DNA from: Silvibacterium dinghuense
Lineage (GTDB): Bacteria > Acidobacteriota > Terriglobia > Terriglobales > Acidobacteriaceae
Reading direction: 5' to 3'
Length of the DNA: 64,000 nucleotides
NCBI RefSeq assembly: GCF_004123295.1
Contig: NZ_SDMK01000001.1
Coordinates: 62,001 to 126,000, forward strand
Of this stretch, positions 21,671-26,474 are shown piece by piece; within the stretch, counting starts at the first letter, position 1; every line of letters starts with the position of its first letter. The position numbers were made by a program, and so were the translations under genes. Below the pieces are notes generated by a model. That model was not told where the DNA came from. It did no database searches and saw only the letters and a list, made by a program, of their open reading frames with translations.

Positions 21671-21741
21671 ATCACCGATCAACACGAGAAGATCGCGGAT
21701 GAAATCGGCAAGAATACCGCGTCTTGTGCGATAACAGCAGG

Positions 21742-22656
21742 GTGGAGCTGAAACACCTACGATCGTTCGTCGCAGTGGCCGAAGAGTTGAGCTTCGTGCG
21801 TGCGGCCGGTATGCTGCATCTCTCGCAGGCAGCGCTGACCGAGCAGATTCAAAAGCTGGAACAGGAACTGGGCGTGCAACTGTTCCTGCGCGACAAGCGA
21901 AGCGTGGCCCTGACCGAGCCCGGAGCGATCTTTCTGACAGAGGCACGGGCTACGCTGGTACGGGCACAGCAAGCCGTAGAGCGCGTTCAGAAGGCCGCAC
22001 GCGGCGAGACCGGACGGCTGCGTATCGGCTTTGTAAGTTCGGCTGCGCTCGAGATCGTGCCAGGGATTGCGCTCGCATTCCGGCATAAATTCCCAGACAT
22101 CACATTGGATCTGACCAACATGCGCACCAGCATGCAGGTGAAGCGGCTGCTGGCCGGCACTCTGGATGCAGGCTTCGTGCGGCTGCCACTGGCGCAGCCG
22201 CAGCTCCTCACGACAATCGTGCATCGCGAGCCCTTTGTTCTGGCGCTGCCGGAGGATCATCGTCTTGCACAGTCGAAGAGTATCCAGCTCGGAGATTTTC
22301 GCGACGAGAAGTTCGTCAGCTATGGGCGGCGATGGGCACCGGGTTTCTTCGACGCGATGATGCAGATGTGTACGCGCGAAGGCTTCAGCCCGGAGATCGT
22401 ACAGGAGACGGGCGAGATGTACACGACGATGGCGCTGGTCGCCGCCGGCGTAGGCGTGGCCATCCTGCCTCGATCGGTGGCGCTGGCGCCGTCGCAGGGC
22501 GTGGCGGTGAAGCCGCTTCCCAAGTCTGTCGGCACCTCGGAGATCGCCATGGCAGTGCGCCGGAGCGGATGGACTGCGTTGATCGAGCATTTTGTCGAAA
22601 CAGTGGATGAAGTGCTCCGGGAGGACAATCGCATGCCCAATTTGGTGAACCGGTAG
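21742..22656 (+). CDS. LysR-family transcriptional regulator
   Basis: 304 residues. The N-terminal helix-turn-helix reads ELKHLRSFVAVAEELSF followed by LSQAALTEQIQKLE; the rest is the periplasmic-binding-protein-like effector domain (GRLRIGFVSSAALEIVPG). GTG 21742 begins the canonical MELKHLRSF; TTG 21724 would add six residues without similarity. The nearest target is the bicupin gene 142 bp downstream, which has a T-N11-A palindrome before it. LysR regulators more often act on divergent genes, so this tandem arrangement is only suggestive. The inducer is unknown. Confidence 0.88.
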   Translation: MELKHLRSFVAVAEELSFVRAAGMLHLSQAALTEQIQKLEQELGVQLFLRDKRSVALTEPGAIFLTEARATLVRAQQAVERVQKAARGETGRLRIGFVSSAALEIVPGIALAFRHKFPDITLDLTNMRTSMQVKRLLAGTLDAGFVRLPLAQPQLLTTIVHREPFVLALPEDHRLAQSKSIQLGDFRDEKFVSYGRRWAPGFFDAMMQMCTREGFSPEIVQETGEMYTTMALVAAGVGVAILPRSVALAPSQGVAVKPLPKSVGTSEIAMAVRRSGWTALIEHFVETVDEVLREDNRMPNLVNR

Positions 22657-22798: not shown

Positions 22799-24061
22799 AT
22801 GAAAGAGCTGACGGCAGAGAAGGACGGATTGGAAGGCGTATCACGACGGAGCTTTCTTGGTGTAGGCTCGGCCGCATTGGCAACCGCCGCAGTGGCGGGA
22901 TTCACGGCGCATGCGCAGGAAGCATCGGCAGGGCAGAAGCCAGGCGGCCCGACCAGCGATCCTGGGCCGGAGAATCGCGGCCTGCTGGAACTGAACTCAA
23001 ACGTGAACATGCCGCCTGTGACCGACCACGGCGATACCGGCCCGCTCTGGTACTCCTTCGACCTGGCGCGCAAGCGCATGGAAAAAGGCGGCTGGACACA
23101 CCAGGTAACGCAGCGCGAACTGGCCCCATCGAAGGATCTGGCCGGGGTGAACATGCGCCTGACAGCAGGCAGCTTTCGCGAGCTGCACTGGCACACTGCG
23201 AATGAATGGGCCTTCATGGAATACGGCAATGCGCGCGTTACGGTGCTGAACCCGGACGGGACCATGTTCATCGACGATGTGAGCGAGGGCGACCTATGGT
23301 TCTTCCCGGCTGGCTACCCGCACTCGATCCAGGGCCTGGGACCGGATGGCTGTCAGTTCCTGCTGGTCTTCGACGAAGGCAACTTCTCCGAGGACAATAC
23401 CTTCCTGCTCTCAGAGACCGTGGCACACACCCCGCCCGAGGTGCTGATGAAGAATTCGAATCTGACCATGGAGGAGATCGCGCGGTTACCCAAGGAACAG
23501 CTCTACATCTTCCCGGCCGAGCTGCCGAATTCGCTGGCCTCGGACCGCGCCTCTATTGGCGGCGCAAGCGTACGGGCTCCGCAGCAGTACACCTTCAAGA
23601 TGACGGCGATGGAGCCGACGGTAAAGGGGCGCGGCGGCGAAGTGCGCGTGGTGGACTCGAAGAACTTCCCGGCAAGCTCGACCATCGCGGCCGGCCTGGT
23701 GCGTCTGAAGCCGGGCGCGATCCGCGAATTACACTGGCATCCGAATGCTTCGGAGTGGCAGTTCTGGCTGGCTGGCAAAGGCCGCATGACAGTGATGATG
23801 CCTGAGGGTAGGGCCCGCACCGTGGACTTCCGCGCCAACGACGTGGGCTTTGTGCCGGCCGTTGCGGCACATTACATCGAAAACACCGGCGATACCGACG
23901 TGCTGTTCCTGGAAATGTTCAAGACCAGCCAGTTCCAGGATGTTTCGCTGAACAACTGGATCCGGCGCATGCCTCCGGAGATGGCGCAGGCACACCTGAA
24001 TCTAAGCGAAGCAACACTGCGAAAGATTCCGGCAGAGAAGCAGGAGATCATCGCCGGTTAA
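22799..24061 (+). CDS. Secreted bicupin, oxalate decarboxylase family
   Basis: 420 residues. A Tat-type leader (SRRSFLGVGSAAL) and mature N-terminus point to export. Two cupin domains each carry the Mn-binding motif: RELHWHTANEWAF and RELHWHPNASEWQFW. The N-terminal domain has a lid loop SEDN at the place of the SENS lid of Bacillus OxdC; the lid Glu, the proposed proton donor for decarboxylation, is kept. Likely reaction: oxalate to formate and CO2, in the periplasm. AAGGAG precedes ATG 22799. No formate dehydrogenase or oxalate transporter is adjacent. Confidence 0.88.
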   Translation: MKELTAEKDGLEGVSRRSFLGVGSAALATAAVAGFTAHAQEASAGQKPGGPTSDPGPENRGLLELNSNVNMPPVTDHGDTGPLWYSFDLARKRMEKGGWTHQVTQRELAPSKDLAGVNMRLTAGSFRELHWHTANEWAFMEYGNARVTVLNPDGTMFIDDVSEGDLWFFPAGYPHSIQGLGPDGCQFLLVFDEGNFSEDNTFLLSETVAHTPPEVLMKNSNLTMEEIARLPKEQLYIFPAELPNSLASDRASIGGASVRAPQQYTFKMTAMEPTVKGRGGEVRVVDSKNFPASSTIAAGLVRLKPGAIRELHWHPNASEWQFWLAGKGRMTVMMPEGRARTVDFRANDVGFVPAVAAHYIENTGDTDVLFLEMFKTSQFQDVSLNNWIRRMPPEMAQAHLNLSEATLRKIPAEKQEIIAG

Positions 24062-24083
24062 ACAGGTCAGATCGCGAACGGCG

Positions 24084-24117
24084 AAGCTCGGCGGAGAAAT
24101 CCGCCGAGCTTTGTTTT
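24084..24117 (+). terminator. Rho-independent terminator of the bicupin gene
   Basis: A 12-bp stem (AAGCTCGGCGGA with TCCGCCGAGCTT, GAAA loop) followed by TTGTTTT, 22 bp after the stop codon. Confidence 0.9.
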
Positions 24118-24123
24118 ATGAAC

Positions 24124-24618
24124 TTACTTCGAGGGAACCGTACCACCATAAACAGCGGGCTCGCCGAGGCTGCCAGCCCTGGGCAGATGGCGAATGTAGA
24201 GAACCATCTTCCACATATCGTCATCGGCGAAGACACCTTCGGACGGCGGCATGCCGGAGGGCCCGATGCCGTGCTGGATGATCCACTTGAGCTGGCCGTC
24301 CGTGTAACTCTGCACCTCGGAGGAAGCGAGCGATGGGACCGGCGGGTCGATCATTGCAGCAAAGGGAACACCCGTGTTCTGGCCATCGAGACCGTGACAG
24401 ACCATGCAGTACTGGGTGAAGGCCTGCTTGCCGTCATCGATGTTCGAAGCCGTAGCCGGAAAGGGATTGCGATCGTGCTTTCCTCCGACGGTGATGTGGT
24501 GCTTGACCCAGTTCACGGTGTGGGTCTGCGCAGGACCGGGCTTCCCTGCCTTGCAACCGGCGAGGGCGGCGAGGGCAAGAAGCGCGGCAACATGGGCGAA
24601 AGAGGGGCGCGAGGTCAT
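24124..24618 (-). CDS. Lipoprotein c-type cytochrome, one heme
   Basis: 164 residues. A lipobox (LAALAGC) ends the signal peptide near residue 22, so the protein is probably anchored to a membrane on its periplasmic side. CMVCH near residue 71 is the single heme c site, and GMPP about 50 residues later gives the axial Met. It lies 15 bp after the CuA-protein gene on the same strand, so the two proteins are probably made together and may exchange electrons. No heme-copper oxidase subunit I is encoded nearby. Confidence 0.88.
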   Translation of the reverse strand: MTSRPSFAHVAALLALAALAGCKAGKPGPAQTHTVNWVKHHITVGGKHDRNPFPATASNIDDGKQAFTQYCMVCHGLDGQNTGVPFAAMIDPPVPSLASSEVQSYTDGQLKWIIQHGIGPSGMPPSEGVFADDDMWKMVLYIRHLPRAGSLGEPAVYGGTVPSK

Positions 24619-24633
24619 GCGTCCGTAGCAGGA

Positions 24634-24993
24634 TTACTTGTCGACGACGTGGACGGTGAGCAGCATCTTGCCGTGGCCCGAGCCACAGAAGACACCGCAC
24701 TTGCCTGTGAAGTCGCCGGTCTGCCCGGGGGTGATGGTCTGCTCGGCCTTTTCACTGCCCATGGCCTTGATGTTCACACCGAGGCCATCGATTTTGAGGC
24801 TGTGCGCAACGTCATCGGAGTACATGACGAGCGTGACCGGCTCGCCCTTCTTGAGGGTGAGCTGATCCGGGACGAAGGCATAGCGCTTGGCATGCACTTC
24901 GATGGTGCGGGGTTCCGCACGAAGAAAGGGCGTGAAGGCGAAGGCCGCGGCAAGAACAACGGCGGAGAAGGCTTTGACAGCGTTACGATTCAT
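24634..24993 (-). CDS. Small secreted CuA-type cupredoxin
   Basis: 119 residues with a signal peptide (about 1-26). The mature part is a single cupredoxin domain with CGVFCGSGHGKM: Cys-x3-Cys-x3-His-x2-Met, exactly the dinuclear CuA motif of cytochrome oxidase subunit II and N2O reductase. An upstream His in DVAHSLKID completes the ligand set. The transmembrane helices of a normal subunit II are absent. ATG 24993 was chosen because it starts the signal peptide; the frame stays open to 25188 without similarity. Together with the cytochrome c downstream it looks like a soluble electron-transfer pair, or a shuttle to nitrous-oxide or oxygen reductases encoded elsewhere. Confidence 0.85.
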   Translation of the reverse strand: MNRNAVKAFSAVVLAAAFAFTPFLRAEPRTIEVHAKRYAFVPDQLTLKKGEPVTLVMYSDDVAHSLKIDGLGVNIKAMGSEKAEQTITPGQTGDFTGKCGVFCGSGHGKMLLTVHVVDK

Positions 24994-25127: not shown

Positions 25128-26474
25128 CTAGATCAGCGATATCCCCATGGCCAGCAGCAGCGCGGTGACGGAGATGAGCGTCTCGCAAACAGACCAGGTC
25201 TTGATGGTGTCGACGACACTCATATCGAAGTACTCCTTCACCAGCCAGAAGCCGCCGTCATTCACGTGCGAAAAGATGACGGAACCCGCTCCGGTGGCGA
25301 CGGCCAGCAACTCCGGCCGGACACCGGCAGCATGCGCAGCGATGGGGGCGACAATGCCGGCGGCCGTGGTCATGGCGACCGTCGACGAACCGGTGGCGAT
25401 GCGCAGAAGCGCAGCGAGAAGCCAGGCCAGCAGTAATAGCGGCACGTGGCTACCAAGCGCCACTCCGACAATGGCGTGCGAAACTCCGCTGTCCTGAAGG
25501 ATGCGGCCGAAGCCACCGCCCGCGCCGACGAGCAGCGTGATGGTCGCAGTGGGAGCGAGACACTCGTTGGTAAAGCGAAGGATGGTCTCACGTGTGAAGC
25601 CGCCCACGCGTCCGAGGGTAAAGAAACTGACGAGAACGCCGATGAGCAGGGCGATGTCGTCGTTGCCAATGAAATGAAGAGCCTGGTTTACGCCGCTGCC
25701 TGGCGCAGTAAAAGCATCCGCCCCACTGCCGACAAGCATGAGCAGCACAGGCGCGAGAATGGTGAACAGCGTAAGTGAAAACGATGGCAGACGGCGGCCG
25801 GGGTCGCGTTCGGCGAACTGCGCAGCCATGGGATTCTCATGCGAGAGACGGATGCGCGGCGCAATGATCATTGTCCAGAGCGGACCAGCGATGATGGCCG
25901 CAGGAATGCCGATAGCAAGCGCGAAAAAGATGGTGCGGCCAATATCGGCGTGATACGCGGTCGCGGCGAGCATGGCGGCCGGGTGCGGCGGCACGAGCGC
26001 GTGATCGACCGAGATGCCTGCAACCATGGGCAACGCGACAAAGACGAGCGAGCGGCCGGTGCGCCGGGCAACGGTATAGGCAATGGGAATGAGCAGAACG
26101 AAGCCGACCTCAAAAAACGCAGGCAGACCGACGATGAGGGCGATGACCATCATGGCCCAGTGCACGCGCTTTTCGCCAAAGAGACGGATGAGAGTGAAGG
26201 CGATCTGATCGGAGCCGCCGGACTCGGCCATCATTTTGCCGAGCATGGTGCCGAGCGCTACCACGACGGCGATATGTCCGAGCGTGTTGCCGACGCCGAC
26301 CTCGAAGGAGTGCACGATGTCCACCGCGGGCATGTGCACCGCGAGCGCGAGGCCGAGCGAGGCGAGCAGCAACGTGATGAAGGGGTTGAGCCGGAAGACG
26401 GCGATGAGCACGACGAGCGCCACCACGGCGACGAGCGCCGAGAGAAGCAAAAAGAGGCTATGCGGATCGATCAT
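25128..26474 (-). CDS. GntP-family permease (gluconate or D-serine type)
   Basis: 448 residues with 11-13 membrane helices. GLPAFFEVGFVLLIPI, ALPMVAGISVDHALVPPHPA and FSHVNDGGFWLVKEYFD are conserved in GntP, DsdX and related symporters. The family moves gluconate, or D-serine in DsdX. Given that the three neighbouring genes all point to D-amino acids, import of D-serine or similar compounds seems more likely than gluconate, but sequence alone does not decide. It follows the ridA-like gene by 48 bp. The ribosome-binding site is weak. Confidence 0.87.
   Translation of the reverse strand: MIDPHSLFLLLSALVAVVALVVLIAVFRLNPFITLLLASLGLALAVHMPAVDIVHSFEVGVGNTLGHIAVVVALGTMLGKMMAESGGSDQIAFTLIRLFGEKRVHWAMMVIALIVGLPAFFEVGFVLLIPIAYTVARRTGRSLVFVALPMVAGISVDHALVPPHPAAMLAATAYHADIGRTIFFALAIGIPAAIIAGPLWTMIIAPRIRLSHENPMAAQFAERDPGRRLPSFSLTLFTILAPVLLMLVGSGADAFTAPGSGVNQALHFIGNDDIALLIGVLVSFFTLGRVGGFTRETILRFTNECLAPTATITLLVGAGGGFGRILQDSGVSHAIVGVALGSHVPLLLLAWLLAALLRIATGSSTVAMTTAAGIVAPIAAHAAGVRPELLAVATGAGSVIFSHVNDGGFWLVKEYFDMSVVDTIKTWSVCETLISVTALLLAMGISLI

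Follow-up and report, generated by a model that had tools for sequence, protein, structure and literature searches.

The window analyzed here is a 64-kb stretch of DNA (G000:C1:62001-126000) from a genome of 5.1 Mb that is 99.93% complete. Its minus strand encodes a small secreted protein with the ligands of a CuA copper center and, downstream on the same strand, a lipoprotein cytochrome c, with 15 bases between the stop codon of the CuA gene and the ATG of the cytochrome gene. These genes, their cofactor sites, and the two flanking genes are as follows.

24637..24993, minus strand: free-standing secreted CuA cupredoxin of 119 aa (stop codon at 24634-24636)
24802..24804, minus strand: CuA ligand His64, in DDVAHSL (coordinate assigned by hand)
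24664..24699, minus strand: CuA ligand loop C99-GVF-C103-GSG-H107-GK-M110 (from alignment A1)
24124..24618, stop codon included, minus strand: lipoprotein monoheme cytochrome c of 164 aa
24553..24555, minus strand: lipobox cysteine Cys22, in LAGC-KAG (read from the sequence)
24394..24408, minus strand: heme-binding motif CMVCH, residues 71-75 (C71, C74, and H75 invariant in 13/13 rows of alignment A2)
24250..24252, minus strand: Met123, in PSGMP, which probably serves as the distal heme ligand (invariant in 13/13 rows of A2)
22799..24061, plus strand: oxalate decarboxylase-family bicupin, transcribed toward the pair (convergent); a neighbor outside the system
25128..26474, minus strand: GntP-family permease, upstream neighbor at 134 bases from the CuA start, probably outside the system

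The CuA protein, the cytochrome, and their neighbors

The CuA protein has a hydrophobic, signal-like N-terminal segment and no C-terminal helix. After residue 35, the highest Kyte-Doolittle mean over 19 residues was 1.09, indicating that the membrane helices of oxidase subunit II are missing. The sequence matched the Pfam families COX2 (E=3.1e-8; 34.0 bits for a cut-off of 22) and Cupredoxin_1 (E=2.2e-8; 34.5 bits for a cut-off of 27), and its score against the CoxB equivalog (54.1 bits) was below the cut-off of 147.7 bits. The closest sequences in the PDB were CuA domains of oxidase subunit II (2lln and 7o37, E=2e-7; 2cua, E=2.4e-7). The alignment of 21 CuA rows, window protein included (A1), revealed that H64, C99, C103, and H107 are invariant (21/21), and that M110 is kept in 20 of the 21 rows and changed to isoleucine in L043.

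The AlphaFold model had a mean pLDDT of 82.6, with residues 31-100 and 111-119 at 90-96 and the block 101-110, which holds three of the CuA ligands, at only 76. Superposition on 2cua, the soluble CuA domain from Thermus ba3, gave 1.4 A for 94 residues (Z 14.0). Similar fold scores were obtained for the copper-less bo3 subunit II (Z 15.4), a Cupredoxin_1 protein of B. anthracis (14.8), and nitrosocyanin (13.8), so the fold search alone cannot tell CuA from other cupredoxins, which the ligands do separate. A binuclear CuA center would be expected to form in the 119-aa protein.

The 164-aa cytochrome matched Cytochrome_CBB3 above the cut-off (E=1.8e-12). A lysine after the lipobox cysteine is expected, by the general rule, to sort a lipoprotein to the outer membrane, where this cytochrome probably sits. 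Identity to the window protein ranged from 52 to 75% across the 12 other rows of A2, the highest value being that of L044. Searched against the PDB, profile A2 found ActE (6f0k_E, E=2.7e-11), as well as 6btm_E and 6lod_E. It matched CcoP chains equally well (8snh_G, E=1e-11), so the relation to ActE is a hint only. Among the cytochromes of the same genome that were compared, the closest was also ActE-like (E=1e-8, 24% identity). The plasmid collection gave no cytochrome match at E<=1e-20. Outside the family, the stretch G309:C40:33321-33767, inside a 408-aa open frame, matched the lipocytochrome strongly (E=2.6e-66), possibly reflecting a fusion or a transfer.

The earlier note on this DNA had described a 119-residue secreted CuA protein without the helices of subunit II, with which both open reading frames, the ligands, and the hydropathy agree. 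It had also placed a lipoprotein cytochrome c 15 bp after the CuA gene, which is borne out by the coordinates, the lipobox, and the heme motif.

The convergent bicupin matched TIGR03404 (E=1.3e-144) and has a TAT-like start; a gene for a LysR-type regulator (21724-22656) adjoins it. Neither the oxalate decarboxylase nor the GntP neighbor was recognized, by eye, in the gene lists of relatives, and a link of the pair with them was rejected. Between the convergent bicupin and cytochrome genes, positions 24081-24118 hold a GC-rich inverted repeat followed by a T-rich stretch, which looks like a terminator by eye, yet is absent from the list of the terminator scan.

Conservation of the pair and the genes around it

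We searched 120 genomes sampled from the same family; the two nearest named relatives were Acidobacteriaceae and Edaphobacter MAGs. Strong cytochrome matches (profile A2 at E<=1e-50) were counted as paired when a CuA match lay on the same strand within 300 bases. Of 46 such matches, 27, in 25 genomes, had a CuA gene immediately upstream. The matched stretches of these paired loci were 4-84 bases apart, and the CuA gene was always the upstream one. Among the 27 best-scoring cytochromes, 26 were paired, the exception being G025, where the two genes stand apart. The possibility that the cytochrome belongs to a different operon, raised by the earlier note, was examined at the 27 loci, and the CuA gene was found directly upstream on the same strand.

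No CuA gene adjoined the other 19 of the 46 strong matches. We retrieved 8 of these 19 loci, 6 of them with readable gene lists, and in 5 of the 6 (L063, L065, L067, L069, and L070) the unpaired cytochrome stood amid similar genes, four of these being judged by resemblance. In L063, the neighbors were a lipid A acyltransferase and a Ysc84 protein. In L064, the cytochrome comes after a thioredoxin-type protein.

A COX1-like ORF was found in none of the 15 pair loci (the window and 14 relatives, 11.5-64 kb each), the full 64 kb of the window included. COX1 was present in 18 other loci, all chosen for oxidase genes or COX2-type matches. Genes of relatives came from a simple codon-usage caller. 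At the window pair it placed an ORF on the opposite strand, and it overlooked two CuA genes (L040 and L050) as well as the small cytochrome of L076 (see below), all three of which were recovered otherwise. Phylum-wide searches, which scored part of the first-pass candidates in each genome, gave strong cytochrome matches in at least 27 of 396 genomes, 26 of them of the same family.

The pair is thus a real, conserved, free-standing couple of a CuA protein and a cytochrome. At the level of sequence, secretion and lipid signals, a full CuA ligand set, a heme site, and tight pairing with no COX1 nearby are established.

Two further genes recur around many pairs: one for a protein of ~340 aa (A3, a probable barrel) and one for a monoheme cytochrome of ~100 aa (A4). 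A3 was found in 42 of the 120 family genomes and A4 in 43, one of which (G128) is a weak match to a different protein. The small cytochrome, which carries a near-fixed HMRVRA stretch, was encoded just downstream of A3 at 43 of 45 A3 places; in G129 the two were 2.4 kb apart, and one place was a fragment. All 20 barrels of the first type had a CuA match (E<=1e-35) on the same contig within ~11 kb, 15 of them within 2.5 kb. The 23 retrieved loci of the second type all showed the order barrel, small cytochrome, protein with the CuA motif (CxxxCxxxHxxM after an upstream histidine), the small cytochrome of L076 being seen in the DNA only. The fragments G143 and G083:C301 were left out of the second-type loci, and the count of barrels with CuA took 44 of the 45 places, without G083:C301. 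In the phylum-wide searches, barrel matches were found in at least 28 of 396 genomes, of which 26 belong to the family of the window genome and 2 to a distant family.

A3 is probably an outer-membrane beta-barrel. It matched OMP_b-brl weakly (E=0.0083) and Porin_O_P in 2 of 10 rows (best E=0.024). An hhalign comparison with relatives of Porin_O_P was also weak (E=0.0017, probability 15%; the control against the cytochrome profile gave E=0.86). Structure prediction from two A3 sequences reached a pLDDT of 26, and the sequence search of solved structures gave no relative. The Porin_O_P comparisons bear on Cyc2 (see below), whose barrel is 16-stranded and Porin_O/P-like.

Profile searches found neither the A3 barrel nor the A4 small cytochrome in the window genome. 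The two were absent from 9 of the 25 pair genomes, this one included, suggesting that the pair persists without the barrel; not all of these assemblies are complete (G084, for example, stands at 70%). In one genome with a second-type locus (G009, L078:3520-8178), the only one where this was noticed, two further genes come after barrel, small cytochrome, and CuA gene: one for a 4Fe-4S protein and one for a membrane protein of the NrfD type that carries Ig-like domains. 4Fe-4S and NrfD proteins together are known from quinone-linked complexes, and this arrangement possibly links the module to the quinone pool. In many second-type loci, a small secreted cysteine-containing protein is encoded after the CuA gene (e.g., L077:6454-6828 and L076:8761-9135); that of L077 matched DUF5818 weakly, just below the cut-off (E=6.9e-6).

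The earlier note on the whole was right in what it observed and partly right in its interpretation, which was too narrow in that it missed this family-wide module of the relatives.

Free CuA genes also occur in other contexts. Of the 46 best CuA matches, 15 had neither an adjoining cytochrome nor a barrel within 2.5 kb. The window genome itself encodes a second stand-alone CuA-like protein (G000:C1:1517886-1518221; L043:9872-10237, minus strand), in which the ligand methionine is replaced by isoleucine. Its gene lies downstream of those for a pentaheme protein with c554-type and TPR domains and a secreted protein of ~160 aa; the CuA genes of L055, L056, and L072 likewise come after a pentaheme protein and a ~160-aa protein. 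In L057, L058, and L081, the pair stands behind a phosphoesterase-like gene (calcineurin-like; checked with Pfam in L057), and genes of the sigma-70 type lie near the pair in L057 and L081. The pair of L044, the nearest relative, comes after genes for a DUF1501 protein and for a protein of the PSCyt1/PSCyt2/PSD1 kind, whose cytochrome domains are of the planctomycete type. A degenerate CuA-like ORF (G001:C1:1800027, L059) was located roughly 7-10 kb from oxidase genes (COX3/COX4-like by eye), and lower-scoring stand-alone CuA matches in G015 and G033 were 20-26 kb from a COX2 gene. CuA-type domains without an oxidase were also seen in an Omnitrophota MAG, behind another domain (L041:5404-6270), and on a contig labelled Woesearchaeota, with a lipoprotein-like start (L042:350-730).

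Oxidases of the same genome and ancestry of the CuA protein

Three COX1 genes are present in the genome. Each is accompanied by a CuA subunit II of its own, and all lie away from the pair, which is therefore an extra. A lost oxidase subunit II is ruled out as the identity of the window protein, each COX1 having its own COX2. The first oxidase operon (L060) includes a cytochrome b protein. The second (L061, around 2.27-2.28 Mb of G000:C1) encodes an NrfD protein and an ActE-like monoheme cytochrome and resembles alternative complex III. In the third (L062), subunit II lacks a heme motif, which is present in 2 of the 3 subunits II (caa3-like). Three Sco-family genes were found, one of them beside the L061 oxidase and none near the pair.

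There were five COX2-family matches in the genome: three beside COX1, the window protein, and the stand-alone match at C1:1517892. All five are accounted for, which makes a NosZ CuA domain unlikely in this genome. The nos_propeller profile search gave no match even in the control genomes and is therefore uninformative here. The earlier note had presented the pair as lacking an oxidase, which holds for the neighborhood and fails for the genome, given the three COX1 and three COX2 genes elsewhere. Its view of an electron-transfer pair detached from any heme-copper enzyme gains support from the conserved pairing and from the 15 pair loci without COX1. Its two suggested destinations for the electrons lose ground: no COX2-family match is left to supply the CuA domain of a distant NosZ, and the three oxidases of the genome already have CuA subunits.

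The tree comprised 59 CuA-domain rows. Nine COX2 loci were tried (L029-L031 and L033-L038), five of which gave a row; duplicates of the three COX2 of the genome were dropped, lower-scoring CuA matches were omitted except L080, and the bootstrap was unsettled. The 8 COX2 rows formed one group (98/96) that excluded the window row, so the CuA protein did not arise by recent copying of an oxidase subunit within the genome. The 23 second-type rows also formed one group (100/99). The window row paired with L044 (92/76) within the starred set of 16 stand-alone rows. The COX2 group joined, on a long branch, beside the stand-alone L057, L058, and L081 (87/99), and COX2 and stand-alone CuA proteins may derive from one another.

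Possible roles and comparison with known systems

The pair may form an envelope electron relay, in which the CuA protein is the soluble carrier and the cytochrome is anchored, and which is separate at the gene level from the oxidases, a reading that we place just on the probable side. The soluble periplasmic CuA carrier and the lipid-anchored cytochrome c, probably in the outer membrane, would presumably react with each other and exchange electrons. The presence of CuA beside or near a probable barrel and a ~100-aa cytochrome in many relatives suggests, as the most likely original role, a passage of electrons at the outer membrane or across it. In the window genome, left with the CuA-lipocytochrome part, the pair would serve another outer-membrane or periplasmic redox partner. 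Since the closest relative compared within the genome is an ActE-like subunit, the relay may also exchange electrons with the inner-membrane chain at the level of alternative complex III.

More tentatively, the pair could belong to an electron conduit of Acidobacteriaceae-like bacteria that would connect the surface of the cell with the inner-membrane chain. The conduit would consist of the outer-membrane barrel, a small cytochrome c that might plug it, the CuA protein, and the anchored cytochrome c. We regard this fuller arrangement as possible and somewhat doubtful.

Alternatively, the pair could be a donor branch, taking up electrons at the outer membrane or within the periplasm to deliver them to a caa3-type oxidase of the same genome of which it is not a part. 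The caa3-like character of two of the subunits II, the operon with NrfD and an ActE-like cytochrome, the resemblance of the pair's own cytochrome to ActE, and the three Sco-family genes would fit such a branch. However, the oxidases already have CuA, two of them also a cytochrome c, and COX1 accompanies none of the 15 pairs. Moreover, available sections of a survey of acidobacterial genomes report a type A oxidase in all the genomes surveyed (PMC5900883), whereas the pair occurs in 25 of 120 family genomes. We consider this role unlikely.

A role in copper or metal handling, with the CuA fold as a periplasmic copper carrier or reservoir and the cytochrome as its redox partner, seems to us rather more unlikely. 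This claim of the earlier note draws some strength from cation-transport genes near the free CuA of several relatives: a cation-efflux gene on the stretches of L046, L058, and, weakly, L043, a heavy-metal-type P-ATPase with an HMA domain in L041, and an RND pump with a P-type ATPase in L072. Yet, among these five stretches only L058 has the pair, ~2.3 kb from the efflux gene, and the transporters were picked by eye among striking genes, so that they come without a background rate. No transporter lies beside the window pair, and the steady partner is the cytochrome.

Finally, it is very improbable that the pair is a shrinking remnant, left with little function after the barrel part was lost from a module of barrel, small cytochrome, CuA, and cytochrome: the window genome and the locus of its nearest relative L044 are indeed barrel-less (the genome of the latter, G006, has the full module elsewhere), but neither ORF is damaged, every cofactor ligand is kept, the cytochrome shares 75% identity with that of L044, and the pair persists without the barrel in 9 of 25 pair genomes.

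In textbooks, CuA centers belong to cytochrome oxidase and N2O reductase. With the oxidase subunit II (Thermus ba3/caa3; COX2, PF00116), the window protein has in common the cupredoxin fold and the H...CxxxCxxxHxxM ligands, whereas it lacks both the membrane helices and the adjoining subunit I. In caa3-type subunits II, the cytochrome c domain comes after CuA. This is also the order of the two genes of the window, and two COX2 of the same genome have both motifs. The CuA domain of nitrous-oxide reductase is similar in fold and ligand type, but there it is joined to a CuZ propeller, while the window ORF of 119 aa is cupredoxin only. ActE of alternative complex III is matched by the profile of the window cytochrome, in a relation that is broad; the window cytochrome is encoded away from the operon resembling alternative complex III, which has its own such cytochrome.

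PmoD/AmoD is described, in the available part of the source, as a free-standing periplasmic cupredoxin that forms CuA (PMC6189053). The same part gives PmoD a CuA site at the homodimer interface, a Cx7MxHxnC motif, and a C-terminal membrane helix (PMC6189053). The window protein, in contrast, has the classical CxxxCxxxHxxM set in one chain and no C-terminal helix. In the cyc2-cyc1-cup part of the rus operon, an outer-membrane porin, cytochromes, and a cupredoxin are encoded together, according to excerpts of its description (PMC10654088). To the extent of these excerpts, the module of the relatives resembles cyc2-cyc1-cup in arrangement, not in membership. Cyc2 combines cytochrome and porin in one protein, with the motif AXPXFAR[Q/K][T/Y] upstream of CXXCH (PMC8406198, from excerpts). 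Membership of the module in Cyc2, as so defined, was rejected: barrel and cytochrome are separate genes, and AXPXFAR[Q/K][T/Y] was absent, by eye, from 7 rows of A4. It further differs from rus-type systems in that the cupredoxin of the relatives has CuA ligands, no COX1 follows in the 15 pair loci, and the window genome is barrel-less.

The acidobacterial survey, in the sections available, reports mtrA/mtrB-like candidates in several genomes and N-oxide respiration as uncommon, and the words "CuA" and "cupredoxin" do not occur in its main text (PMC5900883). In the literature searched on free-standing CuA, on acidobacterial CuA, cupredoxins, and cytochromes, and on barrels with a monoheme cytochrome c and a cupredoxin, we found no description of the pair or the module.

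If the conduit exists, CuA would replace the blue copper protein in a route like that of Cyc2, Cyc1, and rusticyanin, and would have, in addition to its part in PmoD, another natural job beyond terminal oxidases and N2O reductase. A match to the COX2 domain alone is insufficient to annotate an oxidase subunit. Free CuA proteins that, as a family, go with cytochromes and a probable outer-membrane barrel rather than with an oxidase would show that CuA can work as an electron carrier of the envelope, and would offer a testable lead to the way in which such bacteria exchange electrons with their surroundings.
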